Shown here one piece after another: positions 1,711 to 50,262 of a DNA stretch of 51,481 bases. Positions within the stretch are counted from its first letter, which is position 1; each line of letters begins with the position of its first letter. Source of the stretch: a virus; the IMG/VR virus record IMGVR_UViG_3300031259_000021, positions 1 to 51,481 of that record. One strand, given 5' to 3'. A program made the translations under genes and the position numbers. The notes under the pieces are model-generated. The model searched no databases. It saw only the letters and a list, made by a program, of their open reading frames with translations, and was not told where the DNA came from.

Positions 1711-2642
1711 TCCCCCTCGAAAAGACGACAGCCGCAGCCCAGGGCCGCTGGCGGGACATCCTGCTGCACTTCGGCGTGGAGGCCCGATACCTCGAGGACC
1801 GGCACGGGCCCTGCCCGCTCTGCAGGGATGGTGAGGACAGGTTCCGCTGGGACAACACCGAAGGCAACGGCGGGTACTACTGCTCGGCCTGCGGGCCCGG
1901 CTCCGGCATGCACCTGCTCATGGTTCTGAAGGGCTGGGATTTCCCCCGGGCGGCCCGGGAGGTGGACGCCTTCCTGCCGAACGCCAAGGCGGAGCAGGTC
2001 CGGGCCGTGCGCAGCGAGGAGTCCAAGCGGGACTACATGCGGCGGATGTACACCGAGTCCCGCCCGGTGACGCCCGGGGACCCCGTGGGCCTCTACCTGG
2101 CCCGGCGGTGCGGCGACGTGGCGCAGCTGCTCGACGACATCCGGTATCACCCGGGTCTGAAGCACAGCATCGACGGCCAGGTCCACCCGGCCATGCTCGC
2201 CTTCATGGGCTGGGACCCGGTGAAGCGGAAGTTCTCCGGGATCCACCGGACCTACCTCACCACCGACGGCCGAAAGGCCGCGGTCGATCCTGTCCGGATG
2301 GAGTACGGCCCGTCCGGACCCGTGCGCCTCGGGCCGCCCGGCCCGGTCATGGGCATTGCCGAGGGCATCGAGACGGCCCTGTGCGCCCACGCGCTGTTCG
2401 GCCTGCCGGTCTGGTCCGGCATCTGCGCGAACGGGCTGAAGGCCTGGATGCCTCCGGAGGGTGTGCACCAGGTCGTCATCTTCGGCGACAACGACCCCAA
2501 CTTCGTCGGGCCGGCCGCCGCGTTCGAGAAGGCCCGGGCCTTGGCCGCCAAGGGCTACGAGGTGCAGGTCCAGATCCCCCCCATCGTGGGGCAGGACTGG
2601 GCGGATGTGTGGGCGGCAACACCGCGCACGGAGGTGGCCTGA
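1707..2642 (+). CDS. Phage primase: zinc-binding N-terminus plus TOPRIM domain, variant 1
   Basis: 311 residues from GTG 1707, which overlaps the helicase stop (GTGA); the second allele has ATG at the equivalent place. An N-terminal zinc finger (C36, C39, C59, C62) resembles DnaG/P4-type primases. The TOPRIM part shows GIAEGIETA (about 217-225) and FGDND (259-263), the acidic residues that bind metal. It probably makes primers with the neighbouring helicase. Residues 1-105 are nearly the same as in the second copy at 45245, after which the two sequences diverge sharply, so the gene is a mosaic. Confidence 0.88.
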   Translation: MIPLEKTTAAAQGRWRDILLHFGVEARYLEDRHGPCPLCRDGEDRFRWDNTEGNGGYYCSACGPGSGMHLLMVLKGWDFPRAAREVDAFLPNAKAEQVRAVRSEESKRDYMRRMYTESRPVTPGDPVGLYLARRCGDVAQLLDDIRYHPGLKHSIDGQVHPAMLAFMGWDPVKRKFSGIHRTYLTTDGRKAAVDPVRMEYGPSGPVRLGPPGPVMGIAEGIETALCAHALFGLPVWSGICANGLKAWMPPEGVHQVVIFGDNDPNFVGPAAAFEKARALAAKGYEVQVQIPPIVGQDWADVWAATPRTEVA

Positions 2643-3022
2643 TGTCAGGCGGGTATTCCAAACTCTTTTCGGGCATCCTCACCAGCTCCATCTGGTGCGA
2701 GCCGGACCACGTCCTCCGCGTCTGGATCGCCATGCTGGCCCACTGCGACGCGGACGGCTACGTCCCGGGGTCGGTCCCGGGGTTCGCGTCCATGGCCCGC
2801 GTGGGCCTCCCGGAGATGCGCGAGGCTATCGCCAAGCTGGGAGCTCCCGACCCCGACAGCCGCAACCAGGACAACGAGGGCCGGCGCATCGAGACCGTGG
2901 AGGGCGGGTGGCAGATCCTCAACTATCCGATCTACCGGAACATGTGCCAGGACAAGCCCGGATCTAAGGCCAAGGCGATGCGGAAATCGAGGGCCAAAAA
3001 CAAGGGCGCTGACCCTGGGTAA
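2642..3022 (+). CDS. Replication-associated winged-helix-like phage protein (copy 1)
   Basis: 126 residues; the ATG overlaps the primase stop (TGATG). The opening YSKLFSGILTSSIW, the DADGYVPGS stretch and GGWQILNYPIYR match a common phage family found beside primase/helicase genes, whose N-terminal fold I take to be a winged helix like replisome organisers. The tail is lysine/arginine rich (KAKAMRKSRAKNK), suiting DNA contact. The stop codon lies inside the first GGTAAC repeat, so the protein may bind that iteron cluster, which is inference. The duplicate at 46210-46590 is the same. Confidence 0.7.
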   Translation: MSGGYSKLFSGILTSSIWCEPDHVLRVWIAMLAHCDADGYVPGSVPGFASMARVGLPEMREAIAKLGAPDPDSRNQDNEGRRIETVEGGWQILNYPIYRNMCQDKPGSKAKAMRKSRAKNKGADPG

Positions 3023-3082
3023 CACGTTGCAAAACCGGTAACGCGTTACCTCTCGTGGTAACGCCAGGTAACACCGAGTAAC
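3018..3082 (+). repeat. GGTAACRC iteron cluster, candidate replication origin or operator (copy 1)
   Basis: Hexamers GGTAAC start at 3018, 3037, 3057 and 3067, with AGTAAC at 3077, all followed by RC. The one at 3037 is half of a perfect 14-bp palindrome, GGTAACGCGTTACC (3037-3050). Start-to-start spacing is 19, 20, 10 and 10 bp, so all lie near one face of the helix. A pyrimidine-rich tract (about 3083-3120) follows. Position straight after helicase, primase and replication protein suggests an origin; a regulator binding site is the alternative. Confidence 0.6.
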
Positions 3083-3190
3083 GCCTGCCTCTGCTTCTGC
3101 TTCTGCCTTTGTTTCTTTTCCTGGGCCACCAGAAAAACAGGAACACGTACAGCATCCCCACCCCCCTGCACCCCCGCGAAAGGCCACCCC

Positions 3191-3544
3191 ATGAACACCA
3201 CCTCCCCCACGCTGGCCCAGGAATCCCTCACGATCATCCACCACCAGCCCACGAGGTGCTTCTTCCTCCTGAGCACCCAGCCGATCGGCTACGGCGCGCA
3301 GCGCCTGGTGCAGCAGGAGACGATCATCCCCTTCGGCTCTTTCTCTTCCCGCCCGGATCCCATCCGCCGGGCCTGGCTGTTCGTGGAGGCGAACCGCGCG
3401 ATGCACCCGCGCCCCGAACCCCCCGCGCCCCCGCCCACCCGGCCCCAGGTACTGCGGAGTGCCCTGACCCGGTGCATCGGCTGGCTGGTCCCCCGGACCC
3501 CCGCCTCTGCGCGCGAGAACGTGTCTCATCGGGTGCCCCGGTGA
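3191..3544 (+). CDS. Hypothetical protein (copy 1)
   Basis: 117 residues, starting at ATG 3191 and ending in a GTGA overlap with the NinB gene. It is proline and arginine rich in its second half and has no motif I recognise. The gene order (replication, this, ninB) and the coupled stop/start support expression, but the sequence is not a convincing folded domain. No membrane segment or signal peptide is visible. Confidence 0.5.
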   Translation: MNTTSPTLAQESLTIIHHQPTRCFFLLSTQPIGYGAQRLVQQETIIPFGSFSSRPDPIRRAWLFVEANRAMHPRPEPPAPPPTRPQVLRSALTRCIGWLVPRTPASARENVSHRVPR

Positions 3545-3969
3545 AGCCCGAAGTGTTCGTCCTCCGGGATGACGACGACGCCGCCTCCCTCTACGCCTTC
3601 CTGAAGCTCAACCGGCGGCAGCAGGCTACCCTCGGCAAGCCGCTCTCTGTTGTCGTCTCCCTCGAGAAGACCAAGCGCAGCATCGCCGCCAACGCCTACT
3701 ACTGGGGCGTGGTCCTGAAGCAGATCGCGGAGCAGGTGTGGGTCGAGGGCACCCGCCAATACGCTCCCAAGGTCTGGCATGAGGAGTTCAAGGACCGGTT
3801 CGCGCCACGGATCGATCACCCCCTCGGCGGCAGCTACCCCATGAGCACCACGGACATGGACGACGAGCAGTTCCAGACCTTCGTCCACGAGGTGGAGGTC
3901 TTCGCGGCCCAGGAGCTGCAGGTGCGGTTCGTGGACAGCCGGGCGGTGGCGCCAGGGTGGGCGGCCTGA
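3541..3969 (+). CDS. ninB: NinB-like recombination protein (copy 1)
   Basis: 142 residues from GTG 3541, coupled to the previous stop. The pattern KRSIAANAYYWGVVLKQIAE, then HEEFKDRF, then STTDMDDEQFQTFVHEVEVFAAQELQVRF split around the middle, is that of lambda NinB (PF05772), an ssDNA-binding recombination mediator working with RecA-independent pathways. The longer in-frame ORF back to 3109 has no ribosome site and runs through the pyrimidine tract, so I reject it. Followed by terminase with a TGATG overlap. Confidence 0.85.
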   Translation: MKPEVFVLRDDDDAASLYAFLKLNRRQQATLGKPLSVVVSLEKTKRSIAANAYYWGVVLKQIAEQVWVEGTRQYAPKVWHEEFKDRFAPRIDHPLGGSYPMSTTDMDDEQFQTFVHEVEVFAAQELQVRFVDSRAVAPGWAA

Positions 3970-4508
3970 TGGGGAGGAAGTCGAAGCTCACTGAGGACCA
4001 GAAGGCCGACGTCCAGCGAAGGATGGCCGCCGGGGAATCCTGCCGCGCTCTCGCCCGGGAATTCGGGATGGCGGAGTCGAGCCTGCGAGCTTACTTTTCT
4101 GCGCGCGTGGCAAAAATCCAAACCACTGCAAAAAGGCTAGCTACGGTTGAGGATGAAGTTGCTGCGCTGCCTGTATCCGCGCAATTGACGGTGCGCGACC
4201 TCGCCGCGAACATGCGCACCACCGCCGCGAACCTGGCCGCCGTCACTGCCCTGAACACCCGGACCGCCCACCGCCTGGCAAAGCTGGCCGACAAGACCAT
4301 GGATCGGCTGGAGGATCCCGAGGTCAAGGCGGAGCGCAGGGAGGTGGAGCTGCTCAATCTCGCCACCTACGGCTCCCTCTCGCACAACCTCAGCCGGGTG
4401 GGCGTGTCCCTGGTCACCGCTGGCCACCCGCTGAAGCCAGACGAAGAGACCGGGCCGAACCTGGACGGCGCCATGGATGACCTGCGCCGCCGCTTGGGGA
4501 TGGCATGA
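3969..4508 (+). CDS. Terminase small subunit (copy 1)
   Basis: 179 residues; ATG overlaps the ninB stop and the stop overlaps the TerL start (ATGA). The N-terminal 45 residues form a helix-turn-helix (DVQRRMAAGESCRALAREFG, then MAESSLRAYF) of the kind used by small terminases to recognise the packaging site. A helical, oligomerisation-type middle follows. Assignment rests on this HTH plus the position directly before TerL. Confidence 0.8.
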   Translation: MGRKSKLTEDQKADVQRRMAAGESCRALAREFGMAESSLRAYFSARVAKIQTTAKRLATVEDEVAALPVSAQLTVRDLAANMRTTAANLAAVTALNTRTAHRLAKLADKTMDRLEDPEVKAERREVELLNLATYGSLSHNLSRVGVSLVTAGHPLKPDEETGPNLDGAMDDLRRRLGMA

Positions 4509-5830
4509 CGTCGATGGCCGAAGCGTTCCTGCAGCTGCCTGCCGCCGAGCAGGAGGCATACCTCGCGCGCATGGGCCCGGCCCTGCGCTACCGGTGGGAC
4601 TTCTGGTCGCGCCCTGAGCAGCTGGCCCCGGCCGGCGACTGGGTCTGGTGGCTGATCAAGGCGGGCCGTGGCTGGGGCAAGACCCGCACCGGCGCCGAAT
4701 GGGTGCGCGGCGAGGTTGAGGCCGGCCGGCGTGGGCGGTTCGCCCTGGTTGCCCGCACCGCGGCCGATGCCCGCGACGTGATGGTCGAAGGCGAGTCCGG
4801 GCTGCTGGCTATCTGCCCGCCCTGGCAAAGGCCCAATTACGAGCCCAGCAAGCGACGCATTACCTGGCCGAATGGGGCGCTGGCGACCGTGTACAGCGCC
4901 GACGAGCCGGACCTGCTGCGCGGCCCCCAGCACGACGGCGCCTGGGTGGATGAGCTGGCCTCCTGGCGCTTCCCCGACGCTTGGGACCAGCTGCAGTTCG
5001 GCCTGCGCCTGGGCGACCACCCGCGCGGGGTGATCACCACCACGCCTCGGCCCACGAAGCTGATCCGGGAGATTGCGGCCGCGAAGACCACGACCATCAC
5101 GAACGGCCGGAGCCTGGACAACAAGGCCAACCTGGCGCCCGAGTTCTTCACCTTCATCGTGAACAAGTACGCCGGGACCCGCCTGGGCCGCCAGGAGCTG
5201 GAGGGCGAGATCCTGGAGGACAACCCGGGCGCCCTGTGGCACCGGGGCAACTTCGACACCAACCGGGTCACCAAGATGCCCGAGCTGCGCCGCATCGTGG
5301 TGGCCGCCGACCCGGCCGTCACCTCGAACGCGGACAGCGACGAGACCGGCATCATCGTGGCCGGCCTGGGCGCCGAGAACCCGCCGCACTTCTACGTGTT
5401 GGATGACCTGAGCCTGTCGGCCTCGCCCGACGGCTGGGCCCGGGTGCTGGTGATGGCCTATCTGCGCCAGAAGGCGGACCGCATCATCGGCGAGGTGAAC
5501 AACGGCGGCGACCTCATCGAGACGATCATCCGCCATGTGGAGATCGACGGCAAGAAGGCGGGCCTGAACGCCAGCTACAAGGCCGTGCACGCCTCCCGGG
5601 GCAAGGCCATCCGCGCCGAGCCCATCTCCGCCCTGTACGAGCAGAACCGGGTGCACCACGTGGGCGCCTTCCCGGTGTTGGAGGACCAGCTTTGCGACTG
5701 GGACCCCGCCACCAGCACCGACAGCCCCGACCGCCTCGACGCCCTGGTCTGGGCCCTGACCGAACTGTCCGGCGACTCAACCGGGCCCATCAAGATCAAC
5801 GCTGGCCTGCTGGGAAGGATGCGCCGATGA
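4505..5830 (+). CDS. terL: Terminase large subunit (copy 1)
   Basis: 441 residues. ATPase half: Walker A GRGWGKT (54-60), Walker B AWVDE (146-150), coupling motif ITTTPRP (177-183). RNase H-like nuclease half: AADP with D269, GEVNNGGD (329-336) and D412 in DRLDALVWAL. This is the packaging motor that cuts concatemers and pumps DNA into the prohead. The packaging mode (cos or headful) cannot be decided from motifs here. ATGA overlaps link it to both neighbours. Confidence 0.95.
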   Translation: MTSMAEAFLQLPAAEQEAYLARMGPALRYRWDFWSRPEQLAPAGDWVWWLIKAGRGWGKTRTGAEWVRGEVEAGRRGRFALVARTAADARDVMVEGESGLLAICPPWQRPNYEPSKRRITWPNGALATVYSADEPDLLRGPQHDGAWVDELASWRFPDAWDQLQFGLRLGDHPRGVITTTPRPTKLIREIAAAKTTTITNGRSLDNKANLAPEFFTFIVNKYAGTRLGRQELEGEILEDNPGALWHRGNFDTNRVTKMPELRRIVVAADPAVTSNADSDETGIIVAGLGAENPPHFYVLDDLSLSASPDGWARVLVMAYLRQKADRIIGEVNNGGDLIETIIRHVEIDGKKAGLNASYKAVHASRGKAIRAEPISALYEQNRVHHVGAFPVLEDQLCDWDPATSTDSPDRLDALVWALTELSGDSTGPIKINAGLLGRMRR

Positions 5831-6018
5831 AGAACCTGCTGCAGACCTGGGAGATGGAGCCCGGCCCGGGCGGCGTGCCGGTGGTGCCCGCCGCGGTAGA
5901 CCACGACCGCCGCCTGCTGCCCCTCCTGGACGCCTATGGCAACCACATTCCCGACAAACGGCCGCGGGCCGGGTTCGGGGCTCACCTTTACGACCACGAA
6001 GGAAGGATGCGCCGATGA
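5827..6018 (+). CDS. Hypothetical small protein (copy 1)
   Basis: 63 residues, starting at ATG 5827 in an ATGA overlap with TerL and ending in an overlap with the next start; GGAAGG precedes. Sequence is proline rich with one DAYGNHIPDKRPR stretch and no transmembrane segment. I do not recognise it; chained start/stop codons argue that it is translated with the terminase operon. Confidence 0.6.
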   Translation: MKNLLQTWEMEPGPGGVPVVPAAVDHDRRLLPLLDAYGNHIPDKRPRAGFGAHLYDHEGRMRR

Positions 6019-6416
6019 CCAGATTCCAGCACGTTCCCCATCCCCACATCGAAGCACGGAAGGACCAGGCGCCGCCCCCACTGCTCCCCCGCCACCGCCT
6101 TGATCGGATCAACGACACCCTGGCCGTGCGCATCACCAACGCGGTGGGCTCCATGTGGTGCGCCTACGCCTTCGGCCTCCTGGCCCTGGTCAGCCTGCCT
6201 GACGCCATCAAGGGCGGCACCGCGGCGCTCATCGCCTGGATCGCCCAGACGTTCCTGCAGCTGGTGCTTCTGTCCATCATCCTGGTGGGCCAGAAGGTGG
6301 CCGGCGCCGCCTCCGACGCCCAGGCCGCCGCCACCTACCGGGATACCGAGGCCATCCTGCACGAGCTGCTGGAGTTGCAGCGCCACCTGCACGCCCAGGA
6401 CGGGGAGGGCGAATGA
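6015..6416 (+). CDS. DUF1003-like two-span membrane protein (copy 1)
   Basis: 133 residues. Two hydrophobic spans (about 48-66 and 71-95) follow RINDTLAVRITNAVGSMW; the second carries WIAQTFLQLVLLSIILVGQ, reminiscent of small inner-membrane proteins of the DUF1003 type. A helical tail follows. It sits just upstream of the lysis genes, so a holin-related or superinfection role is possible, but nothing in the sequence decides this. Confidence 0.6.
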   Translation: MTRFQHVPHPHIEARKDQAPPPLLPRHRLDRINDTLAVRITNAVGSMWCAYAFGLLALVSLPDAIKGGTAALIAWIAQTFLQLVLLSIILVGQKVAGAASDAQAAATYRDTEAILHELLELQRHLHAQDGEGE

Positions 6417-6601
6417 CCGACAAGAACTGGATCAGCACCGGCAAGGCCAACAAGATCTTCAACCAGGGCATCGATGACCGCACCTTCCGCGACAACTTCC
6501 GCGACTGCGTGCAGAACCACCTCACCCCGGGCGGACAGTTCCGCTGGTTCCGGCCCGAGGTCGAGCAGCTGCGCGACGCGCCCAAGGACAAGGCGAGCTG
6601 A
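6413..6601 (+). CDS. Small MerR/excisionase-like helix-turn-helix protein (copy 1)
   Basis: 62 residues, ATGA-coupled to the previous gene. The pattern WISTGKANKIFNQGIDDRTF, then TPGGQFRWF and EVEQLR, follows the MerR-type plan of an N-terminal helix-turn-helix and a short wing (PGG-x-R-W/F). A DNA-binding role is inferred. It lies inside the morphogenesis operon rather than near att, so calling it the excisionase would be unsafe; the gene at 33165-33389 is the better Xis candidate. Confidence 0.55.
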   Translation: MTDKNWISTGKANKIFNQGIDDRTFRDNFRDCVQNHLTPGGQFRWFRPEVEQLRDAPKDKAS

Positions 6602-6606
6602 AACAC

Positions 6607-6638
6607 GGAAAAGGCGGAAAACCAGGAAAACACGGAAG
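6607..6638 (+). repeat. Four GGAAAA repeats with exact 9-bp period (copy 1)
   Basis: GGAAAA starts at 6607, 6616 and 6625 and GGAAG at 6634, separated by three variable bases each, in the only non-coding gap of the terminase-lysis operon (6602-6694). No terminator is seen. It could act in transcription or translation of the lysis genes, or be a drifted copy of a dispersed host repeat. Confidence 0.6.
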
Positions 6639-6694
6639 TAACATCCTGGATGCCTTCATGCGCGGGCGTGAGTCTTGGGTCATCCGAGGTTCAG

Positions 6695-7219
6695 ATGGCC
6701 GAGTTCATGCGCGCGTTGCCCTACGTGCTCGACAATGAGGGAGCCAATCTGCCTCACGGCGGAAAGTGCGACATCCCCGGCGATTCCGGCGGCCGCACGA
6801 ACTGTGGCGTCAGCACCCCAGCCCTTCTGGATTTCAACCGCCGGCATCCCGAGCTGGGGTTCCCCGATGACCCTTGGGCGCTGACGCCCGACCAGATCGC
6901 CACGTTCTACCATATGGACTTCTGGGGCTACGACGGCATCGCCGCCCAGCCCATTGCCACGAAGCTCATGGACATGGGCGTGAACATGGGCCGCGGCACG
7001 GCTGTGGAACTGGCGCAGAAAATCCTGGGCGTAACCGTTGACGGTGGATGGGGCCCTGCCTCTCAGGCGGCCGCCAACGCCCAGGATCCAGACGCGTTGC
7101 TTGACCACCTGGCCCAGGCCTCCACCGACCACTACAACGCCATCGTCGCCCGCAAGCCGGCGGACGCGAAGTTCCTGCCTGACTGGCTCCGGCGCGCCGC
7201 CAGGGTGCCGAATGCCTGA
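6695..7219 (+). CDS. Endolysin, glycoside hydrolase 108 family (copy 1)
   Basis: 174 residues from ATG 6695 (GAGG 6 bases upstream); an in-frame ATG at 6650 would add 15 residues that do not fit the family. The start MAEFMRALPYVLDNEGAN places the likely catalytic Glu at residue 15, followed by DSGGRTNCGVS as in GH108 muramidases. The C-terminal half resembles the PG_binding_3 domain. It would cleave peptidoglycan at lysis. No signal peptide or SAR anchor is visible, so export depends on a holin. Confidence 0.85.
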   Translation: MAEFMRALPYVLDNEGANLPHGGKCDIPGDSGGRTNCGVSTPALLDFNRRHPELGFPDDPWALTPDQIATFYHMDFWGYDGIAAQPIATKLMDMGVNMGRGTAVELAQKILGVTVDGGWGPASQAAANAQDPDALLDHLAQASTDHYNAIVARKPADAKFLPDWLRRAARVPNA

Positions 7220-7544
7220 CGCATGTGCGACCCCGGAGACCCTTACGACGAGCGCCCCTACGACTGGCCGTACTGGCCTGTTCCGGGATCTGGTCAGGCG
7301 GGACCGGCCGGAGAGCCCCGAAGCGTTCGTGCTGATGGGCACGACCGGCTTCCTGGGCTCTGGATTCCTGATGATGGCCTTTGCGGCCGCTCGTCGGATC
7401 TGGATCAAGGGTGACCTGGGCGCCGGAGCCATGAGCGCAATTACCGCCACAGCCGCCTCGCTGGCACTGCTGATCGCCTACGTCAAGGGCCGGCGCCGGC
7501 CGGACGACGTTTCCCCTTCCACCCCATTCCAGGAGCCCCAGTGA
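7212..7544 (+). CDS. Putative holin (copy 1)
   Basis: 110 residues from ATG 7212, overlapping the endolysin end by 8 bases. Two hydrophobic spans (about 40-60 and 72-92) are separated by a short RRIWIKGD turn, and a charged RRRPDD tail follows, the usual plan of two-span holins. The position directly behind the endolysin is the main support; no family motif is recognised. Confidence 0.65.
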   Translation: MPDACATPETLTTSAPTTGRTGLFRDLVRRDRPESPEAFVLMGTTGFLGSGFLMMAFAAARRIWIKGDLGAGAMSAITATAASLALLIAYVKGRRRPDDVSPSTPFQEPQ

Positions 7545-7777
7545 AAACTCTTGAGCAGTACCTCCTCGACGCGGCCGACACCACCACGACCATGCACATG
7601 CTGGTCATGAAGCCCCGGGCCACTTCCACGGCGCCGGACGGCACGGTGACGCAGGCGCCGGTTTGTTTCTACATCCACCCCTCGGGCGTCGACGGCGAGA
7701 CCCTGGACTTCGCGGTGGACGGGAACACCCTGTCCCAGGATCCCAGCGTGACCTACGCCGAGGAACCGGCCCAGTGA
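7541..7777 (+). CDS. Hypothetical small protein (copy 1)
   Basis: 78 residues from GTG 7541 (GTGA overlap with the holin stop) to a GTGA overlap with the next gene; GGAG lies upstream. Acidic, with no transmembrane segment. A hydrophilic core with DGTVTQAPVCFYIHPSGVDGETLDF suggests a small beta domain. Function unknown; the coupled codons put it in the lysis cassette. Confidence 0.6.
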   Translation: MKTLEQYLLDAADTTTTMHMLVMKPRATSTAPDGTVTQAPVCFYIHPSGVDGETLDFAVDGNTLSQDPSVTYAEEPAQ

Positions 7778-8481
7778 CCGCCAAGGGCTACCTCATCGCC
7801 GCCGTCCTGCTGCTCGCGGGCGGCGCCGGCCTGGGCTGGATGGCCCGCGGCTGGGGTAGCAAGAGCCAGCCCGCCGACCTGGCCCAGGCGGCCCAGCAGG
7901 ACCAGACCGGGGCGAATGCCTACGACGCGGGGGTGCAGCATGGCCAGGAAGCGAAGACCACGGCCCCGGCGGTCGCGAAGGACGAAGTTGCAGTTGCTGA
8001 CAAGGGCGCAAAGCTGGCCCAACTGCAGGCTGAGGTCGCATACCTTCGGAAACTGCAGCCCGGTGCTGTTCGCCCTTCCGGCGCTCCCGGTGCCCCGGCT
8101 GCTGGTGCTCTGCCGCTGCCTGTGGGAACGACTCTGGATGCGGCCAAGGACGAGCTGATCGATGCCGAGGACGCCGACCGCGGGGCCCTGAACCAGGACC
8201 TGGCCGACACCAAGACCCAGCTCGGCCAGACCCAGGCGGCGGCCGCCTCGTTCCAGCTGTCCGCCGACAGCTACAGGGCCGAGACCGTCACCCTGCGCAG
8301 CGCCATCGTCCCGGCCCGGCCCACGGCAGCCGGCATCATCTACGGCACCAGCCAGACCATCGGCGCATTCATCGAACGGGACTTCGGACCCATCCGCGCC
8401 GGCGTGGACGTGGTCCGCCGTGTGCTGCCCGCCGGCCCCGCAACCGTCGACGCCACCGCCCGCGTGGGCTGGTGCTTCTGA
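7774..8481 (+). CDS. Spanin-like membrane-anchored coiled-coil protein
   Basis: 235 residues from GTG 7774. One N-terminal transmembrane span (about 5-22) is followed by a long periplasmic part with Ala/Gln-rich coiled coil (about 30-95 and 130-175). This is the topology of an inner-membrane spanin (Rz), and the location behind endolysin and holin fits. No separate small outer-membrane lipoprotein (Rz1) was found embedded, so the assignment stays tentative. A truncated duplicate starts at 51342. Confidence 0.5.
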   Translation: MTAKGYLIAAVLLLAGGAGLGWMARGWGSKSQPADLAQAAQQDQTGANAYDAGVQHGQEAKTTAPAVAKDEVAVADKGAKLAQLQAEVAYLRKLQPGAVRPSGAPGAPAAGALPLPVGTTLDAAKDELIDAEDADRGALNQDLADTKTQLGQTQAAAASFQLSADSYRAETVTLRSAIVPARPTAAGIIYGTSQTIGAFIERDFGPIRAGVDVVRRVLPAGPATVDATARVGWCF

Positions 8482-30594: not shown

Positions 30595-31953
30595 ATGGCA
30601 AGGACGAAACGCAGCCAGGACCTGGACACGCGGACGAAGCGCCTGGCGCTGCCCATCGGGAAAAGGTTTACCGAGACCCTGGCCGAAGGGTGCTACATCC
30701 TCTATAAGCGGCCGGCGAACGGGGCCTCCGGGAACTGGATCGCCCGGCGCTACGACCTGGAGACCAAGAAGTTCCGGCAGGAGGTGGTGGGCGTGGCCGA
30801 TGACCTCCTGGACAGCGACGAGATCAGGATCCTCACCTTCGCTCAGGCCCAGAAGCGCGCAGAGGCCCGGTTCGAAGCCTGGAGCCGGGAGGCGGTGCTG
30901 GTCGCTGGTGGCGAGGTCCCGCACAAGGGGACCTTCACGGTGGGCGATGCCTGGGCCGAGTACATCGCGGACGCGGAGCTGCGAGGCGTGCACGGAATCC
31001 GAATCATGAAGCAGACCGCCGAGGCCCACATCATCCCGACCCTGGGCCAGGTGGACGTGGCCAAGCTCACCCCGAAGAAGGTCCGGGACTGGCACCAGGC
31101 GCTGGCGGCCCTGGCCCGGCGGAAGACCGGCGCGAAGCGGAAACCCGGGGCAGACGTCGAGCACCTGGCGGATCCGGAGACCGAGGACGAGAAGCGGGCC
31201 CGGAAGGACAGCGCGAACCGGATCCTGAGCAACCTGAAGGCCGCCCTCAACTTCGCCGCCAAGTCCCGCGGCATCGGCCGGGCCACAGACTGGCGCCAGG
31301 TGAAGCCCTTCCAGAACGTCACCCAGCCCCGTGTCAGGTTCCTGACGGTGGATGAGCAGCAGCGCCTGGTCAACGCCTGCCCGCCGGAGCTGCGCGCCCT
31401 GGTCAAGGGGGCCCTGTACACCGGGGCCCGCTACGGCGAGCTGACCCAGGTCCGCGTCGGGGACCTGAACCCGCAGGGCAGCCTCCACATTCTGTTCGGC
31501 AAGGCCAACCGGGGCGGCTACAAGCCTCGGCACGTGGTGCTGACCAAGGAGGGGCTGGAGTGGTTTGTCAGCCACACCGCCGGGCGGAAGGCGACCGAGC
31601 TGATGTTCCAGCACACCGCCACCCGGGCCGGCCGGGCCGAGGCCCTGAAGGACTGGGACGGCTGGGTGGCCTACGATCAGGCGAAGGTCATGGAGGCGGC
31701 CTGCGTGAAGGCGGAGATCACCGCGGTGACCTTCCACGAGCTGCGCCACACGTACGCCTCGGCCCTGGTCAACAAGGGCGTTCCCTTGGCCTACGTCGCC
31801 GAGCAGCTGGGGCACTCGAACACCCGCATGGTGGAGAAGCACTACGGCCATCTATGCCCGAGCGCCAAGGCGGATTCGATCCGGCTCCTGGCGCCCGTGC
31901 TGGGATTCGATGGTGACCTGGTCGTGCAACCCCTGGATATCAAGAAGGGGTGA
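30595..31953 (+). CDS. int: Tyrosine-family integrase
   Basis: 452 residues. An arm-binding N-terminal part and a SAM-like core-binding region (about 112-225) precede the catalytic domain: R279 in TGARYGEL, a Lys at 303 or 310, H381-x-x-R384 in HELRHTYAS, H407 in GHSNTRM and the nucleophile Y417. All key residues are present. It recombines attP with attB in tRNA-Val. It lies next to attP; the likely excisionase is 1.2 kb further on the other strand. Confidence 0.93.
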   Translation: MARTKRSQDLDTRTKRLALPIGKRFTETLAEGCYILYKRPANGASGNWIARRYDLETKKFRQEVVGVADDLLDSDEIRILTFAQAQKRAEARFEAWSREAVLVAGGEVPHKGTFTVGDAWAEYIADAELRGVHGIRIMKQTAEAHIIPTLGQVDVAKLTPKKVRDWHQALAALARRKTGAKRKPGADVEHLADPETEDEKRARKDSANRILSNLKAALNFAAKSRGIGRATDWRQVKPFQNVTQPRVRFLTVDEQQRLVNACPPELRALVKGALYTGARYGELTQVRVGDLNPQGSLHILFGKANRGGYKPRHVVLTKEGLEWFVSHTAGRKATELMFQHTATRAGRAEALKDWDGWVAYDQAKVMEAACVKAEITAVTFHELRHTYASALVNKGVPLAYVAEQLGHSNTRMVEKHYGHLCPSAKADSIRLLAPVLGFDGDLVVQPLDIKKG

Positions 31954-38543: not shown

Positions 38544-39416
38544 TTATGCAATGAGGCCGAGATCGGAGAGGTCGTTGTCTTCGCTGTTGCTGCCGCCGGC
38601 CCAGCCGGGGAGGTCCAGGTCCATCTCTTCCGTGGCCCGGGCCGGCCACACGTCCGTGGCCTCGCACTCCTGCAGGGTCGCCAGGACGCGCTGGTAGTCG
38701 TCGTGGCCGCGGGTGAGGAAGTCCTCGGTCGCCACGTACACGGCCGGCTCGTAGGGCGCCTTGGACTCGACGGCGAGGGCCACGAACCCGGGGAATTCGT
38801 CGGTGAGGGTGTGGAAGCCGTCGCAGTAGAGGCCGAACTGCAGGTGGTAGCCGAGCCCAAAGGCGTCGCTGGTGAATTTGCGCCGGCTGCTGTTTCGGGT
38901 GGTCTTGAGGTCGCACAGCCAGAACTGGCCGTCCAGGTAGGTGAGCCAGTCAATCCGGCCGTGCATCTTGCGCCCAGTGATGGGGTCCACCCACTGCATG
39001 GTGACTTCGGCTAGGCCGTGCTCCAGGAAGCGGGCCGCGGGGGCGTGGCCGCAGATGGCGGAACGCATGCCCTTCACGTCCTCGAACTCGGAGCGGCTCA
39101 GAATGACCTTGCCGGCGTTGGCTTCCTCGAAGGCGTCCCAGGCTTTGCCGCGCTTGGCCCCGGTCTCCCACAGCACGTAGTCGGTCTTCATCCGGTGCGG
39201 CTCCAGGACGGCGGTGTGGGTCGCTGTGCCCATCATCATGGCCGGCGTGCTGGAGTGGTCCGGGTGGTCCAGTGCCCACTTGTAGTTCAGGGGCGACTGC
39301 ATGGCCTTCTTCAGCTTCGAGGCGCTGTCGCCCTCCAACTGCAGGTACTGGTCGAAGGGCATCCCACAGGTGAAACCGGGCACCTTGTTGGCGGCGATGG
39401 TGGCGAGGTCGATCAT
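38544..39416 (-). CDS. RecE-like PD-(D/E)XK exonuclease
   Basis: 290 residues. H67 in GTATHTAVLEP, then GRIDWLTYLDGQFWLCDLKT with D156 and D169-x-K171, and Q193 in GYHLQFGLYC give the catalytic core of the RecE/PDDEXK (DUF3799) group. It would resect dsDNA ends to make ssDNA for annealing. The stop lies just upstream of the OB-like gene, and the start overlaps the small zinc protein by 4 bases. Confidence 0.85.
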   Translation of the reverse strand: MIDLATIAANKVPGFTCGMPFDQYLQLEGDSASKLKKAMQSPLNYKWALDHPDHSSTPAMMMGTATHTAVLEPHRMKTDYVLWETGAKRGKAWDAFEEANAGKVILSRSEFEDVKGMRSAICGHAPAARFLEHGLAEVTMQWVDPITGRKMHGRIDWLTYLDGQFWLCDLKTTRNSSRRKFTSDAFGLGYHLQFGLYCDGFHTLTDEFPGFVALAVESKAPYEPAVYVATEDFLTRGHDDYQRVLATLQECEATDVWPARATEEMDLDLPGWAGGSNSEDNDLSDLGLIA

Positions 39417-42297: not shown

Positions 42298-42653
42298 TCT
42301 GGACCATCAAAATCTCCGCCGCCACCCCCAGCGGCAACACGACCCTGCGCAAGCACTGGGCCGCCCGGGGCCGGCAGCAGTTCGACATGTATTTCCTCCT
42401 GGCCGCGGGCCTCAACAAGGTGGCACCCATCCCGGCCGCCACCGGCAAGCGCCGCCTGACCATCGAGCGCCACGGGAAACGGCTGCTCGACGCCGACAAC
42501 CTGGCCGCCGGCTGCAAGGCCCTTATCGACGTCGTCAAGTTCCGGAAGCTGATCCTCGACGACAACCCGGCGGTCTGCGAGCTGGTGTTCCGGCAGGCGC
42601 CCGCCTCCATCCTCGCCCCCTTCACCCTCGTAACCCTGGAAGACATCGCATGA
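42294..42653 (+). CDS. RusA-like Holliday junction resolvase
   Basis: 119 residues from ATG 42294; the upstream ORF part is a shadow of the HNH gene. KRLLDADNLAAGCKALIDVV and LILDDNPAV carry the acidic residues of RusA (D66, D68, D79, D89/D90) in PF05866. It cuts recombination junctions before packaging. Overlapping starts link it to HNH and ParB-like genes. Confidence 0.82.
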   Translation: MIWTIKISAATPSGNTTLRKHWAARGRQQFDMYFLLAAGLNKVAPIPAATGKRRLTIERHGKRLLDADNLAAGCKALIDVVKFRKLILDDNPAVCELVFRQAPASILAPFTLVTLEDIA

Positions 42654-43726
42654 GCAACGTTCGCAGCATTCTCCTTCGTCACATCCGCCTGGACGGCGGC
42701 ACCCAGGCCCGGGTCAAGGTCGACCAGGCCGCCATCGACGAATACGCCGAAGCCATGGAGGCCGGCGCCAGCTTTCCGGCCGTGGTTGTGTTCGAGGACC
42801 ACACCAGCAATCTCCTCTGGCTGGGCGATGGCTTCCACCGTGTGGCCGCCGCCGAGGCCGCCGGCAAGAAGAACATCAAGGCCGAGATCAGGGAAGGCGG
42901 CCTCCGGGAGGCGCGGCTGTTCGCCATCGGTGCCAACGTCACCCACGGCGTGCGCCGGTCGAACGCCGACAAGCGCATGGCCGTCTCCCTGCTTCTTGAT
43001 GACCCCGAGTGGGGCGCCTGGAGCAATCGTGAAATCGCAAGGGTCGCTGGCGTAAGTGAGTTTCTTGTCAGAGATATGAAGGATGAGAGAGTGCGATTAA
43101 ATCGCACCCAGGAGGGCACTGGGGTGCCAACCGTTGGCACCCCGACCAAGGAAAAACCGGCACCTGGGCCAGCCAAAGCCGACAGCACCACCTGGTCCGA
43201 GATGGAGGCTGGCGCCACCGAGCAGGTGTGCGGCGTCTCCGAATCGACCAGGTCATTCCCCTATGTCGATGAAGCCCAGCTCCACCCGGCCGTGCCGCCC
43301 GCCGCCCCCATCAAGGCCGACCCGCTGCCGCCCGGGCCTGACGATCGGGACAGCCGGATCGTGCAGCTCGAGCACCTGGTCGAGGTGAAGGACGCGGAGA
43401 TCGCCGAGCTGACCCGAAAGCTCGAGGAAGCCGGCGCCCAGGTCCAGGAGCTGGCCGAGGAGCTGGCCGCCGCACAGCGGGTGCTGGATGGTGAGGATCT
43501 GTTGAAATCCTTCCAGACCGAGGTCACCCGGGCCCAGGCCCTGGCGCGCACCACCGAGGAGCGGTTCCGGGGCATGCAGAACCAGAACAAGGCGCTGTCC
43601 AAGTCGGCCACCTCCTGGAAGCGGAAATTCGAGGCCCTGGAGCGGAAAACCAAGGGCACACCCGAGCCGGTCGCGGATCCCGAGATCGAATTCGACGAAT
43701 GCCCCTATCCCCCCGTCGAGGTGTGA
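42650..43726 (+). CDS. ParB/sulfiredoxin-domain protein with coiled coil
   Basis: 358 residues. The N-terminal ParB-like nuclease domain has TQARVKVDQAAIDEYAEAME and GDGFHRVAAAEAAGKKNIKA (about 55-75), followed by a helix-turn-helix (WSNREIARVAGVSEFLVRDM), a low-complexity linker and a coiled coil (about 236-340). Such phage proteins may act in replication control or host DNA modification. The stop is one base before the helicase ATG. The left-edge fragment at 2-103 is another allele's tail. Confidence 0.8.
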   Translation: MSNVRSILLRHIRLDGGTQARVKVDQAAIDEYAEAMEAGASFPAVVVFEDHTSNLLWLGDGFHRVAAAEAAGKKNIKAEIREGGLREARLFAIGANVTHGVRRSNADKRMAVSLLLDDPEWGAWSNREIARVAGVSEFLVRDMKDERVRLNRTQEGTGVPTVGTPTKEKPAPGPAKADSTTWSEMEAGATEQVCGVSESTRSFPYVDEAQLHPAVPPAAPIKADPLPPGPDDRDSRIVQLEHLVEVKDAEIAELTRKLEEAGAQVQELAEELAAAQRVLDGEDLLKSFQTEVTRAQALARTTEERFRGMQNQNKALSKSATSWKRKFEALERKTKGTPEPVADPEIEFDECPYPPVEV

Positions 43727-43727
43727 G

Positions 43728-45248
43728 ATGGACTTCGGAGGAGAATTCCCACCACCCCGTGATTTCCAGGAGAAGACCCTCGAATCCTTGAGACAAGGGA
43801 TCCGCGAGGGCCACCGCCGGCAATGTGCCATGGCGCCCACCGGCGGAGGCAAGACCTACATCGCCATGCGTGTCATTGAGCGGGCCCTCGCCAAAAGCCG
43901 GCGCGCCCTGTTCATCGCCGACCGGATCACCCTCATCAACCAGACCTCGGAGACGGCCGAGCGGTACGGCCTCTGGAACCACGGCATCATCCAGGCCAGC
44001 AACCCCCGGATGGACCTGGCCCGTCCGTTTCAGATCGCCAGCCTTCAGACCCTGGCGGCCCGCGGCTGGCCCAAGGACATCGACGTGATCGTGGTCGACG
44101 AGTGCCACACCCAGTACAAAACCTGGGTCGACTACGTCACCAGCGACGAATGCACGGCGCAGGTGATCGGCCTCAGCGCCACACCGTTCTCCAAAGGCCT
44201 GGGCAAGGTCTTCACGCGCCTGGTCAACGCCGCCACCATGCACGAGCTGACCGAGCTGGGGATCCTGGTGCCCATGCGCCTGTTCTCCTGCCGGAAGCCG
44301 GATATGTCCGGGGCGGCGACGGTGGGCGGGGTCGCCAACGGGGAGTGGACGGCCGAGGCCGCCAGCGAGCGGGAGATCGCCATCGTCGGCGACGTCGTCA
44401 CCGAGTGGACCCGCCACGCCTTCAACCTGAAGACCATCGTCTTCGGCGCCACCATCGTGCACTGCGAGGAGCTGTGCAAGCAGTTCCTCGCGTGCGGGGT
44501 CCAGGCCGCGGTCTTCACGGCCAACACCACCGAGGAGGAGCGGGCGGTGCTGCTGGAGGAATACCGGCGCCACGATTCCAGCCTACGCGTCCTGATCAGC
44601 GTCGAGGCCCTGGCCAAGGGCTTCGATGTGCCCGACGTCGAATGCGTCTGCGACTGCCGGCCGCTCAGGAAAAGCCTCTCCACTGCCATCCAAATGTGGG
44701 GCAGGGGCCTCCGCTCCTCCAAGGAGACCGGGAAGACCGAGTGCCTGCTGCTGGACTTCTCCGGCAACATCATCCGGTTCATGGCCGACTACGAGCGGAT
44801 CTTCTTCGAGGGCCTGGACAAGCTGGACGACGGGGAAAAGCTCGACAAGGAGGTTCGCAAGGACGAGGAGCACGAGCCCAGGCCCTGCCCGGCCTGCGGC
44901 TACACCCCCTTCGCTAAGAAGTGCATGCGCTGCGGCCACGAGGTCAAGCCGGTGTGCCTGGTGGAGCACCTGCCCGGGCACATGGAGGAGGTCATCCTCT
45001 GCGGCAAGAAGAAGCTGGCCAACGACAAGATGGACCTGTGGACCCAGGTCGCCACCTACGCCCGCCAGAGGGCCAAGCCCGGCGGCAACCCGGCCGGCAG
45101 GGCCGCCCACCTGTTCAAGGACATCACCGGCGAGTGGCCGCCCCGCGGCTGCAAGTTCGAGACCACGCCCGAGGTACAGCCCACCCGGAACACCATGGAC
45201 AAGATCCGCTCCCTGAGCATCGCCTTCGCGCACAGGAGGGCGTCATGA
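43728..45248 (+). CDS. Superfamily II helicase, variant 2 without internal zinc ribbon
   Basis: 506 residues. Walker A APTGGGKT (36-43), DECH (124-127), SAT (150-152) and QMWGRGLR near 318-325 are all present, as is the C-terminal ribbon CPACG/CMRCG. Compared with the allele at 103 it lacks about 29 residues with four cysteines between DECH and SAT, but the rest is close. This allele completes the 43,568-bp unit. Confidence 0.9.
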   Translation: MDFGGEFPPPRDFQEKTLESLRQGIREGHRRQCAMAPTGGGKTYIAMRVIERALAKSRRALFIADRITLINQTSETAERYGLWNHGIIQASNPRMDLARPFQIASLQTLAARGWPKDIDVIVVDECHTQYKTWVDYVTSDECTAQVIGLSATPFSKGLGKVFTRLVNAATMHELTELGILVPMRLFSCRKPDMSGAATVGGVANGEWTAEAASEREIAIVGDVVTEWTRHAFNLKTIVFGATIVHCEELCKQFLACGVQAAVFTANTTEEERAVLLEEYRRHDSSLRVLISVEALAKGFDVPDVECVCDCRPLRKSLSTAIQMWGRGLRSSKETGKTECLLLDFSGNIIRFMADYERIFFEGLDKLDDGEKLDKEVRKDEEHEPRPCPACGYTPFAKKCMRCGHEVKPVCLVEHLPGHMEEVILCGKKKLANDKMDLWTQVATYARQRAKPGGNPAGRAAHLFKDITGEWPPRGCKFETTPEVQPTRNTMDKIRSLSIAFAHRRAS

Positions 45249-46210
45249 TCCCCCTCGAAAAGACAACGGCCGCGGCCCAGGGCCGGTGGCGGGACATCCT
45301 GCTGCACTTCGGCGTGGAGGCCCGATACCTCGAGGACCGGCACGGGCCCTGCCCGCTCTGCAGGGACGGGGAGGACCGCTTCCGCTGGGACAACACCGAC
45401 GGCAACGGCGGGTACTACTGCTCTGCCTGCGGGCCCGGCTCGGGCATGCACATGCTCATGGTCCTGAAGGGCTGGGACTTCCCCCGGGCGGCCAAGGAGG
45501 TGGACGCCTTCTTGCCGAACGCCAAGGTGGAGCAGGCCCGGGCCGTGCGCAGCGAAAAGTCAAAGGAGGACGCCATTCTCCAAGTCTGGAACACGTCGCG
45601 CCGCTTGGCCCTTGGAGATCCCGTGTGGACCTACCTGGAGTCCAGGTGCGGACCTCTCGACCCACCACCCAGGAACATCCGGTTCCACCCCTCCCTGCGC
45701 CACAGCGTGGATGGAGGGAACCATCCAGTGATGGTCGCCAGGTCCTTCTTTGCCGACGGAACGCCGGGCGGATTGCATCGAACGTTCCTCACCCCAGATG
45801 GAAGGAAAGCACAGGTAGACCCCGTTCGGCAGGCCCTGGGCAAGCTGCGGCGCGAAGCGGATGGGCCTGGGGCTGCAATTCCGTTGACCCTCAAGGCCGA
45901 TCGCCTGGGGATCGCTGAAGGCATCGAGACGGCGATCTGCGCCGGCATTCTGCACGACATGCCGGTTTGGGCCGCCATAAGCGCTAACGGGCTGAGGGCC
46001 TGGGTCCCTCCGGAGGGTGTTCGATCCGTGGTGGTCTTCGGGGACAACGACGCAAACCGTGTCGGCCAGAAGGCCGCCTGGGCATGTGCGTCCCATATGG
46101 CCGACTTGGGCCTGGACGTAGAGGTGTGCATCCCTCCCATCCCTGGGCAGGACTGGCAAGACGTATGGGCCGTGCAGCACGCGCAGCCCAAGCTGCAGGG
46201 GGTGGCCTGA
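45245..46210 (+). CDS. Phage primase, variant 2 with diverged TOPRIM half
   Basis: 321 residues from ATG 45245 in an ATGA overlap. Zinc finger CPLC/CSAC as in variant 1 and TOPRIM motifs RLGIAEGIETA and VFGDND. Residues 1-105 are about nine-tenths alike between alleles; after that they share mainly motif residues, and the DNA from about 45557 uses more A/T-ending codons. The second half was probably acquired by recombination. Confidence 0.88.
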   Translation: MIPLEKTTAAAQGRWRDILLHFGVEARYLEDRHGPCPLCRDGEDRFRWDNTDGNGGYYCSACGPGSGMHMLMVLKGWDFPRAAKEVDAFLPNAKVEQARAVRSEKSKEDAILQVWNTSRRLALGDPVWTYLESRCGPLDPPPRNIRFHPSLRHSVDGGNHPVMVARSFFADGTPGGLHRTFLTPDGRKAQVDPVRQALGKLRREADGPGAAIPLTLKADRLGIAEGIETAICAGILHDMPVWAAISANGLRAWVPPEGVRSVVVFGDNDANRVGQKAAWACASHMADLGLDVEVCIPPIPGQDWQDVWAVQHAQPKLQGVA

Positions 46211-46590
46211 TGTCAGGCGGGTATTCCAAACTCTTTTCGGGCATCCTCACCAGCTCCATCTGGTGCGAGCCGGACCACGTCCTCCGCGTCTGGATCGCCA
46301 TGCTGGCCCACTGCGACGCGGACGGCTACGTCCCGGGGTCGGTCCCGGGGTTCGCGTCCATGGCCCGCGTGGGCCTCCCGGAGATGCGCGAGGCTATCGC
46401 CAAGCTGGGAGCTCCCGACCCCGACAGCCGCAACCAGGACAACGAGGGCCGGCGCATCGAGACCGTGGAGGGCGGGTGGCAGATCCTCAACTATCCGATC
46501 TACCGGAACATGTGCCAGGACAAGCCCGGATCTAAGGCCAAGGCGATGCGGAAATCGAGGGCCAAAAACAAGGGCGCTGACCCTGGGTAA
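46210..46590 (+). CDS. Replication-associated winged-helix-like protein (copy 2)
   Basis: 126 residues, same as 2642-3022, here downstream of the variant 2 primase with a TGATG overlap. Thus the same replication protein works with two different primase alleles if both units are real. Confidence 0.7.
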   Translation: MSGGYSKLFSGILTSSIWCEPDHVLRVWIAMLAHCDADGYVPGSVPGFASMARVGLPEMREAIAKLGAPDPDSRNQDNEGRRIETVEGGWQILNYPIYRNMCQDKPGSKAKAMRKSRAKNKGADPG

Positions 46591-46650
46591 CACGTTGCAA
46601 AACCGGTAACGCGTTACCTCTCGTGGTAACGCCAGGTAACACCGAGTAAC
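46586..46650 (+). repeat. GGTAACRC iteron cluster (copy 2)
   Basis: Same five sites as at 3018-3082: starts at 46586, 46605 (palindrome 46605-46618), 46625, 46635 and 46645. Unchanged although the genes upstream differ. Confidence 0.6.
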
Positions 46651-46758
46651 GCCTGCCTCTGCTTCTGCTTCTGCCTTTGTTTCTTTTCCTGGGCCACCAG
46701 AAAAACAGGAACACGTACAGCATCCCCACCCCCCTGCACCCCCGCGAAAGGCCACCCC

Positions 46759-47112
46759 ATGAACACCACCTCCCCCACGCTGGCCCAGGAATCCCTCACG
46801 ATCATCCACCACCAGCCCACGAGGTGCTTCTTCCTCCTGAGCACCCAGCCGATCGGCTACGGCGCGCAGCGCCTGGTGCAGCAGGAGACGATCATCCCCT
46901 TCGGCTCTTTCTCTTCCCGCCCGGATCCCATCCGCCGGGCCTGGCTGTTCGTGGAGGCGAACCGCGCGATGCACCCGCGCCCCGAACCCCCCGCGCCCCC
47001 GCCCACCCGGCCCCAGGTACTGCGGAGTGCCCTGACCCGGTGCATCGGCTGGCTGGTCCCCCGGACCCCCGCCTCTGCGCGCGAGAACGTGTCTCATCGG
47101 GTGCCCCGGTGA
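46759..47112 (+). CDS. Hypothetical protein (copy 2)
   Basis: 117 residues, the same as 3191-3544, with the GTGA overlap into ninB. Confidence 0.5.
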   Translation: MNTTSPTLAQESLTIIHHQPTRCFFLLSTQPIGYGAQRLVQQETIIPFGSFSSRPDPIRRAWLFVEANRAMHPRPEPPAPPPTRPQVLRSALTRCIGWLVPRTPASARENVSHRVPR

Positions 47113-47537
47113 AGCCCGAAGTGTTCGTCCTCCGGGATGACGACGACGCCGCCTCCCTCTACGCCTTCCTGAAGCTCAACCGGCGGCAGCAGGCTACCCT
47201 CGGCAAGCCGCTCTCTGTTGTCGTCTCCCTCGAGAAGACCAAGCGCAGCATCGCCGCCAACGCCTACTACTGGGGCGTGGTCCTGAAGCAGATCGCGGAG
47301 CAGGTGTGGGTCGAGGGCACCCGCCAATACGCTCCCAAGGTCTGGCATGAGGAGTTCAAGGACCGGTTCGCGCCACGGATCGATCACCCCCTCGGCGGCA
47401 GCTACCCCATGAGCACCACGGACATGGACGACGAGCAGTTCCAGACCTTCGTCCACGAGGTGGAGGTCTTCGCGGCCCAGGAGCTGCAGGTGCGGTTCGT
47501 GGACAGCCGGGCGGTGGCGCCAGGGTGGGCGGCCTGA
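47109..47537 (+). CDS. ninB: NinB-like recombination protein (copy 2)
   Basis: 142 residues, the same as 3541-3969, GTG start. Confidence 0.85.
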   Translation: MKPEVFVLRDDDDAASLYAFLKLNRRQQATLGKPLSVVVSLEKTKRSIAANAYYWGVVLKQIAEQVWVEGTRQYAPKVWHEEFKDRFAPRIDHPLGGSYPMSTTDMDDEQFQTFVHEVEVFAAQELQVRFVDSRAVAPGWAA

Positions 47538-48076
47538 TGGGGAGGAAGTCGAAGCTCACTGAGGACCAGAAGGCCGACGTCCAGCGAAGGATGGCCGCCG
47601 GGGAATCCTGCCGCGCTCTCGCCCGGGAATTCGGGATGGCGGAGTCGAGCCTGCGAGCTTACTTTTCTGCGCGCGTGGCAAAAATCCAAACCACTGCAAA
47701 AAGGCTAGCTACGGTTGAGGATGAAGTTGCTGCGCTGCCTGTATCCGCGCAATTGACGGTGCGCGACCTCGCCGCGAACATGCGCACCACCGCCGCGAAC
47801 CTGGCCGCCGTCACTGCCCTGAACACCCGGACCGCCCACCGCCTGGCAAAGCTGGCCGACAAGACCATGGATCGGCTGGAGGATCCCGAGGTCAAGGCGG
47901 AGCGCAGGGAGGTGGAGCTGCTCAATCTCGCCACCTACGGCTCCCTCTCGCACAACCTCAGCCGGGTGGGCGTGTCCCTGGTCACCGCTGGCCACCCGCT
48001 GAAGCCAGACGAAGAGACCGGGCCGAACCTGGACGGCGCCATGGATGACCTGCGCCGCCGCTTGGGGATGGCATGA
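47537..48076 (+). CDS. Terminase small subunit (copy 2)
   Basis: 179 residues, the same as 3969-4508, with the N-terminal helix-turn-helix. Confidence 0.8.
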   Translation: MGRKSKLTEDQKADVQRRMAAGESCRALAREFGMAESSLRAYFSARVAKIQTTAKRLATVEDEVAALPVSAQLTVRDLAANMRTTAANLAAVTALNTRTAHRLAKLADKTMDRLEDPEVKAERREVELLNLATYGSLSHNLSRVGVSLVTAGHPLKPDEETGPNLDGAMDDLRRRLGMA

Positions 48077-49398
48077 CGTCGATGGCCGAAGCGTTCCTGC
48101 AGCTGCCTGCCGCCGAGCAGGAGGCATACCTCGCGCGCATGGGCCCGGCCCTGCGCTACCGGTGGGACTTCTGGTCGCGCCCTGAGCAGCTGGCCCCGGC
48201 CGGCGACTGGGTCTGGTGGCTGATCAAGGCGGGCCGTGGCTGGGGCAAGACCCGCACCGGCGCCGAATGGGTGCGCGGCGAGGTTGAGGCCGGCCGGCGT
48301 GGGCGGTTCGCCCTGGTTGCCCGCACCGCGGCCGATGCCCGCGACGTGATGGTCGAAGGCGAGTCCGGGCTGCTGGCTATCTGCCCGCCCTGGCAAAGGC
48401 CCAATTACGAGCCCAGCAAGCGACGCATTACCTGGCCGAATGGGGCGCTGGCGACCGTGTACAGCGCCGACGAGCCGGACCTGCTGCGCGGCCCCCAGCA
48501 CGACGGCGCCTGGGTGGATGAGCTGGCCTCCTGGCGCTTCCCCGACGCTTGGGACCAGCTGCAGTTCGGCCTGCGCCTGGGCGACCACCCGCGCGGGGTG
48601 ATCACCACCACGCCTCGGCCCACGAAGCTGATCCGGGAGATTGCGGCCGCGAAGACCACGACCATCACGAACGGCCGGAGCCTGGACAACAAGGCCAACC
48701 TGGCGCCCGAGTTCTTCACCTTCATCGTGAACAAGTACGCCGGGACCCGCCTGGGCCGCCAGGAGCTGGAGGGCGAGATCCTGGAGGACAACCCGGGCGC
48801 CCTGTGGCACCGGGGCAACTTCGACACCAACCGGGTCACCAAGATGCCCGAGCTGCGCCGCATCGTGGTGGCCGCCGACCCGGCCGTCACCTCGAACGCG
48901 GACAGCGACGAGACCGGCATCATCGTGGCCGGCCTGGGCGCCGAGAACCCGCCGCACTTCTACGTGTTGGATGACCTGAGCCTGTCGGCCTCGCCCGACG
49001 GCTGGGCCCGGGTGCTGGTGATGGCCTATCTGCGCCAGAAGGCGGACCGCATCATCGGCGAGGTGAACAACGGCGGCGACCTCATCGAGACGATCATCCG
49101 CCATGTGGAGATCGACGGCAAGAAGGCGGGCCTGAACGCCAGCTACAAGGCCGTGCACGCCTCCCGGGGCAAGGCCATCCGCGCCGAGCCCATCTCCGCC
49201 CTGTACGAGCAGAACCGGGTGCACCACGTGGGCGCCTTCCCGGTGTTGGAGGACCAGCTTTGCGACTGGGACCCCGCCACCAGCACCGACAGCCCCGACC
49301 GCCTCGACGCCCTGGTCTGGGCCCTGACCGAACTGTCCGGCGACTCAACCGGGCCCATCAAGATCAACGCTGGCCTGCTGGGAAGGATGCGCCGATGA
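48073..49398 (+). CDS. terL: Terminase large subunit (copy 2)
   Basis: 441 residues, the same as 4505-5830, with intact Walker A, Walker B and nuclease acidic residues. If both copies are in one chromosome, both are functional-looking. Confidence 0.95.
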   Translation: MTSMAEAFLQLPAAEQEAYLARMGPALRYRWDFWSRPEQLAPAGDWVWWLIKAGRGWGKTRTGAEWVRGEVEAGRRGRFALVARTAADARDVMVEGESGLLAICPPWQRPNYEPSKRRITWPNGALATVYSADEPDLLRGPQHDGAWVDELASWRFPDAWDQLQFGLRLGDHPRGVITTTPRPTKLIREIAAAKTTTITNGRSLDNKANLAPEFFTFIVNKYAGTRLGRQELEGEILEDNPGALWHRGNFDTNRVTKMPELRRIVVAADPAVTSNADSDETGIIVAGLGAENPPHFYVLDDLSLSASPDGWARVLVMAYLRQKADRIIGEVNNGGDLIETIIRHVEIDGKKAGLNASYKAVHASRGKAIRAEPISALYEQNRVHHVGAFPVLEDQLCDWDPATSTDSPDRLDALVWALTELSGDSTGPIKINAGLLGRMRR

Positions 49399-50169: not shown

Positions 50170-50174
50170 AACAC

Positions 50175-50206: not shown

Positions 50207-50262
50207 TAACATCCTGGATGCCTTCATGCGCGGGCGTGAGTCTTGGGTCATCCGAGGTTCAG

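Follow-up and report, generated by a model that had tools for sequence, protein, structure and literature searches.

Lambdoid origins of the O type include those of the Stx phages, and the C-terminal domain of a lambdoid initiator recruits a helicase or a helicase loader. In the lambda O gene, four iterons are annotated at nt 348–433. These are 18–19 bp imperfect inverted repeats and are accompanied by an A+T-rich tract (PMC7466680). Salmonella phages L and P22 carry repeats within gene 18 that differ in each phage and were proposed by the authors to be the origin; in phage L, these are six 11-bp repeats, TGTCCAACGGA (PMC8022706). Origins built on intragenic iterons are thus a known kind, represented by lambda O, P22 18 and phage L 18.

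The element described here lies in a viral DNA stretch of 51,481 nucleotides (IMG/VR record IMGVR_UViG_3300031259_000021), the whole of which is referred to as the window. In the array, + strand GTAAC sites start at 3019, 3038, 3058, 3068 and 3078, in steps of 19, 20, 10 and 10 bp. Iteron 1, GGTAACAC (3018–3025, + strand), encloses the TAA stop codon (3020–3022) of the ORF at 2642–3019 and, with GTTGC at 3026–3030, forms an imperfect palindrome, GTAAC-AC-GTTGC (3019–3030). Iteron 2 is joined to an inverted GTAAC copy at 3045–3049, producing the palindrome GGTAACGCGTTACC at 3037–3050 (no strand assigned). Iterons 3 (GGTAACGC, 3057–3064), 4 (GGTAACAC, 3067–3074) and 5 (AGTAACGC, 3077–3084) all lie on the + strand, and GGTAACRC is matched exactly at every site except the fifth. 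As the first site is also palindrome-like, the array opens with two paired sites, spaced by 19 bp, and continues with three single half-sites. A + strand pyrimidine tract then spans 3085–3120, comprising four hexamers (CTGCCT CTGCTT CTGCTT CTGCCT, 3085–3108) and looser pyrimidines to approximately 3120; relatives have a CAGA[A/T]G tract at this place, on either strand. The preliminary description of this DNA had reported five sites with these steps, a palindrome, an overlap of the first site with the replication-gene stop and a one-strand pyrimidine tract behind the sites. The five sites were recovered with identical steps and the other three features are present, the tract as (CTGCYT)n; the first paired site was absent from that description. 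The sequence GTAACGCGTTAC also occurs at loci L003, L036 (twice), L091, L104 (twice), L133 (twice) and L065.

Positions 2626–7913 of the record are identical to 46194–51481, an exact overlap of 5.3 kb between its ends that leaves a unit of ~43.6 kb. The array is therefore seen twice and counts as one locus; the second copies of the initiator-like gene and of the array with its tract lie at 46210–46590 and 46586–46688 (both + strand). Across the window, GTAAC is not enriched (21 found versus 19.2 expected in shuffles), and 12 of the 21 occurrences sit in the two copies of the 64-bp array. The nine others, in ~51 kb, correspond to an expectation of ~0.01 per 64 bp, versus the six found.

Upstream of the array, the + strand encodes an SF2 (DEAD/ResIII) helicase (variant A, 76–1710; phrog_16, 2e-73, and PF04851) and a Toprim primase (variant A, 1707–2642; phrog_510, 7e-71, PF13362 and PF08273). 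The versions of these genes preceding the two array copies differ (1–2625 versus 43569–46193; proteins 84% and 64% identical), and the switch between them falls ~15 bp before the initiator-like gene. Either the assembly joined two strain variants, or the helicase–primase module has been exchanged.

The resemblance to lambda is one of layout. In both, the repeats come immediately after the DNA-binding domain of the initiator, equally far from the start of its gene (nt 348–433 in lambda, about nt 377–442 in the window), a strand-asymmetric tract follows, and the initiator and replication genes surround the repeats. Unlike the lambda iterons, however, the window sites are 5–8 bp long and phased at 10 bp, some forming 12-bp palindromes, and the CTGCYT / CAGA[A/T]G hexamer tract contains G and C rather than being A+T-rich. 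Furthermore, the window gene ends at the array without a C-terminal domain, whereas full-length relatives retain the C-terminal part. As iterons of 18–20 bp, an A+T-rich tract and a C-terminal domain are all missing, the window element is not classed as a member of the lambda type, although it very probably works like a lambda-type origin. The phage L repeat resembles repeat classes seen among the relatives in its length and GTCC start; the window differs from phages L and P22 in its GTAAC core and intergenic position, and a hexamer tract is unreported for those two phages. Beside the array, no Rep_3/RepA-type initiator of iteron plasmids was detected with Pfam or NCBIfam. The element is best explained as a so far uncharacterised variant of the lambda-like iteron origin.

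A similar design is found in E. coli phage vB_EcoS-689R5, Pseudomonas phage 5399 and Aeromonas phage pAEv1818, which have three to five GTCACG copies at ~10-bp steps, with an AGATAA/AGATAC tract behind them. In vB_EcoS-689R5, the gene concerned is annotated as replication protein O. As in the window family, array and tract occupy the linker of an initiator gene; unlike in the window, the array is coding and the N-terminal part belongs to an unrelated family. Cultured E. coli phages of the same design make the origin reading directly testable.

The ORF that ends in the first iteron (2642–3022 with its stop, + strand) encodes a 126-residue winged-helix, phage initiator-like protein. The protein itself matched no curated family in Pfam, NCBIfam or PHROG. 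It is 58% identical to the 277-residue protein of L036 and 26–41% identical to other relatives, and the PHROG matches of the relatives are to replication initiation proteins, DnaD-like helicase loaders and O-like proteins. An AlphaFold2 model built from 63 sequences (pLDDT 83.6) has its elements in winged-helix order, and Foldseek matched this model to viral replication proteins and replisome organizers. The "putative replication protein" of the preliminary description gains a predicted winged-helix fold and, through its relatives, homology to annotated phage initiators. A profile search of PDB sequences found nothing, and tblastn of four family members against annotated phages gave nothing significant (a single match at E = 2); from these searches, the family seems to be almost missing from cultured phages.

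Relatives were collected with a protein motif, PDPxSRTxDxEGRR, searched as a degenerate DNA pattern; the array was excluded from the bait in order to avoid circularity. This search returned 121 loci, 110 of them viral and 11 from genome stretches. At most loci, a 5–6 bp motif recurs at ~10-bp steps behind the winged-helix domain and is followed by a hexamer tract. The motif itself varies (GTAAC, GTCAAC, GTCCAC, GTCAC, GTCAGC, GTAAGC, GTTAGC, GTTGC and others). When 5-mer chains 130–250 bp behind the protein motif were compared with codon-shuffled versions of the same sequence at 94 non-redundant loci, the phased chains exceeded the shuffles at 60 loci at the 5% level and at 42 at the 1% level. 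Similarly, in 69 loci whose motif was picked by count and not by spacing, the spacings cluster at 9–11, 19–21 and 29–31 bp (R=0.72 at 10 bp, 0.02 at 3 bp), extending to the relatives the helical phasing first claimed for the window. A period-6 tract (score of at least 12) occupies the array position in 49 of 95 loci versus 3 of 1614 control windows; its consensus is CAGA[A/T]G, and 54 loci carry it on the strand of the gene, 23 on the opposite strand. The suggestion that related phages would share GGTAACRC arrays at this place is therefore borne out for architecture and position, but not for the sequence. The phased-chain method detected no clear array in approximately a quarter of the relatives, and a clade of five loci (L072, L088, L112, L115 and L116) encodes proteins of this family but has neither array nor hexamer tract.

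In the window lineage, the gene ends at or before the array and the C-terminal domain is gone. The truncated genes all belong to one supported set of 14 rows, which they share with four full-length genes. A primase lies directly upstream in all truncated loci with enough sequence, and an SF2 helicase likewise where the contig extends that far, the exception in both cases being L170, which also has no array. By comparison, a primase of this type was found upstream of none of the 87 full-length loci with 1.3 kb of upstream sequence. A DnaB-like helicase gene comes right after the full-length gene in 23 of 96 loci, always within 1.5 kb, and other full-length genes directly precede a DnaC-like loader; no DnaB-like gene was found at the truncated loci. 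In the window, tblastn across the whole sequence detected no DnaB-like helicase, and no polymerase was found among the ORFs scanned. This distribution suggests that the C-terminal domain and the coding role of the array were lost when the helicase–primase module took over. Tentatively, and with the odds against it, the window lineage may follow the lambda scheme without a loader: an initiator reduced to its winged helix, acting on a noncoding phased array, would hand the opened tract directly to the phage SF2 helicase and primase, replacing the C-terminal domain and the DnaB/DnaC route of the full-length relatives.

Taken together, the array is probably a lambda-like iteron origin used by the neighbouring initiator (probability roughly 0.78), and very probably the place where this virus starts to copy its genome. 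In the proposed mechanism, the winged-helix protein would bind GTAAC half-sites, both alone and paired as GTAAC-N2-GTTAC. The bound half-sites would lie on one face of the helix, allowing a nucleoprotein complex to form, and this complex would promote opening of the adjoining hexamer tract. The opened tract would then receive the phage's own SF2 helicase and primase or enzymes of the host. Binding by this protein, the role of the tract as an opening or loading site and the start of replication here are inferred. A replication neighbourhood supports the origin reading, with helicase and primase upstream in the window, and a DnaB-like helicase or DnaC-like loader following in relatives; the composition of the hexamer tract, which is not A+T-rich, speaks against it.

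The identity of the binder is less firm. Repeat class tracks winged-helix identity weakly: pairs that are 80–90% identical share a class half the time, and the close sisters L070 and L125 differ at the same place (CTAAC versus GTAAC). Repeat specificity therefore seems either to evolve rapidly or to be determined outside the winged-helix domain, and given this loose coupling the 126-residue protein is only the putative binder. A comparison of winged-helix residues with repeat class did not clearly single out a residue that sets specificity; the highest-ranking columns are N-terminal and look phylogenetic. A real origin with a different phage or host protein as the binder of its repeats is accordingly an alternative to be weighed, since class switches occur among winged-helix proteins that are more than 80% identical and GTAAC arrays also occur in genes whose N-terminal parts are unrelated (L059, L062, L060 and DUF3489 proteins). 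It is nevertheless unlikely, as within the family the array always accompanies an initiator-type gene and lambda O provides a precedent for an initiator recognising sites in its own gene.

Winged-helix proteins are often regulators, and the best PDB folds for the model in Foldseek, all weak, are winged-helix transcription regulators. The intergenic array of the window could on this basis be an operator, at which the winged-helix protein or a phage repressor controls its own operon or the genes behind, with no origin involved. This is improbable, because most relatives have the array in the interior of the initiator gene rather than before a gene, it is accompanied by a hexamer tract and by helicase, primase or loader genes, and the relatives match replication initiation families. 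Less probable still is a packaging site, as in cos/pac, with the repeats bound by a small terminase subunit encoded nearby. An HTH protein (3957–4505) and a large terminase (4505–5830) do follow the array within ~1.5 kb, but among the other arrays of the truncated lineage only that of L091 has a related large terminase nearby, and none was detected within 5.5–11.7 kb downstream in L104, L111, L093 and L086, where divergent ones could escape detection. Moreover, initiator and array always occur together, and in most relatives the array is within the initiator gene.

Selection on the array acts on the DNA, as the motif spacing tracks the helical turn and not the codons. Most relatives translate the array as a linker between two domains (VTxxN, then AEAEAE or DTDTDT). 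In coding arrays, GTAAC uses both stop-free frames (VT or RN/GN/SN); in noncoding arrays, the TAA frame occurs as well. The motif is found on both strands. The valine codon GTA accounts for 27 of 51 valine codons in arrays versus 20 of 213 elsewhere (p=5e-11). Furthermore, repeats and tract are retained in eight truncated loci (the window, L003, L104, L111, L093, L086, L168 and L142), in which the gene stops before or inside the array and pairs of the GTAAC-GC-GTTAC type persist. That the repeats are a low-complexity linker (VTxxN, AEAEAE) selected as peptide, as their translation in most relatives might imply, can be dismissed given the near absence of a 3-bp spacing signal, the use of two frames and both strands, the GTA bias and the survival of untranslated arrays.

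The array and its phasing, the conservation of its place and its selection as DNA are established by computation. Cumulative GC skew, proposed earlier as a further check, lends the site no support. The minimum of the cumulative curve lies at ~29–30 kb, away from the array, and the other extreme at ~40.5 kb. Predicted genes switch from the + to the - strand at ~33 kb, and the window skew appears to be dominated by gene direction, so the distant minimum is not taken to refute an origin.

A literature search, in which subscription papers were mostly out of reach, found no paper with the GTAAC motif, and within the same scope no description of the short phased motif, the hexamer tract or the noncoding form. 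The architecture offers a rule that should locate origins in many uncultured phages, in which the part of the initiator gene after the winged-helix domain is scanned for 5–6 bp repeats phased at ~10 bp and for a CAGA[A/T]G tract. It also accounts for the unusual linkers (VTxxN...AEAEAE) in phage replication proteins, which would be DNA sites translated as part of the gene. The relatives form a natural series of fast-changing initiator–site pairs in which changes of initiator DNA specificity can be studied, and the window lineage is a case in which the coding constraint on the array has been lifted.

A separate DNA pattern of four phased GTAAC sites, baited with the array itself, matched 61 stretches in viral contigs, many within replication-protein genes. 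DUF3489 proteins (L017, L022, L032 and L033), which to our knowledge are not known as initiators, have VTPCN/VTPSN linkers with phased GTAAC between two domains. Unrelated phages have noncoding, exact 10-bp GTAAC tandems (L030 ~7530, L028 ~9209, L054 ~1584, L053 ~9844 and L013 4165–4360), such as TTAGAGTAAC and TCGTAACAAA. No initiator gene was recognised beside those looked at, and the tandems were set aside as a different element; some directly precede a small zinc-ribbon-like ORF. At L068 and L106, an insert that by eye looks like a GIY-YIG-type domain occupies the array place in the linker of the initiator-like gene, and a hexamer-type tail follows it. The window also encodes an integrase (30595–31953), an exonuclease VIII-like protein (38544–39416) and a ParB-like protein (42650–43726), which mark it as a temperate phage that has recombination genes of its own.
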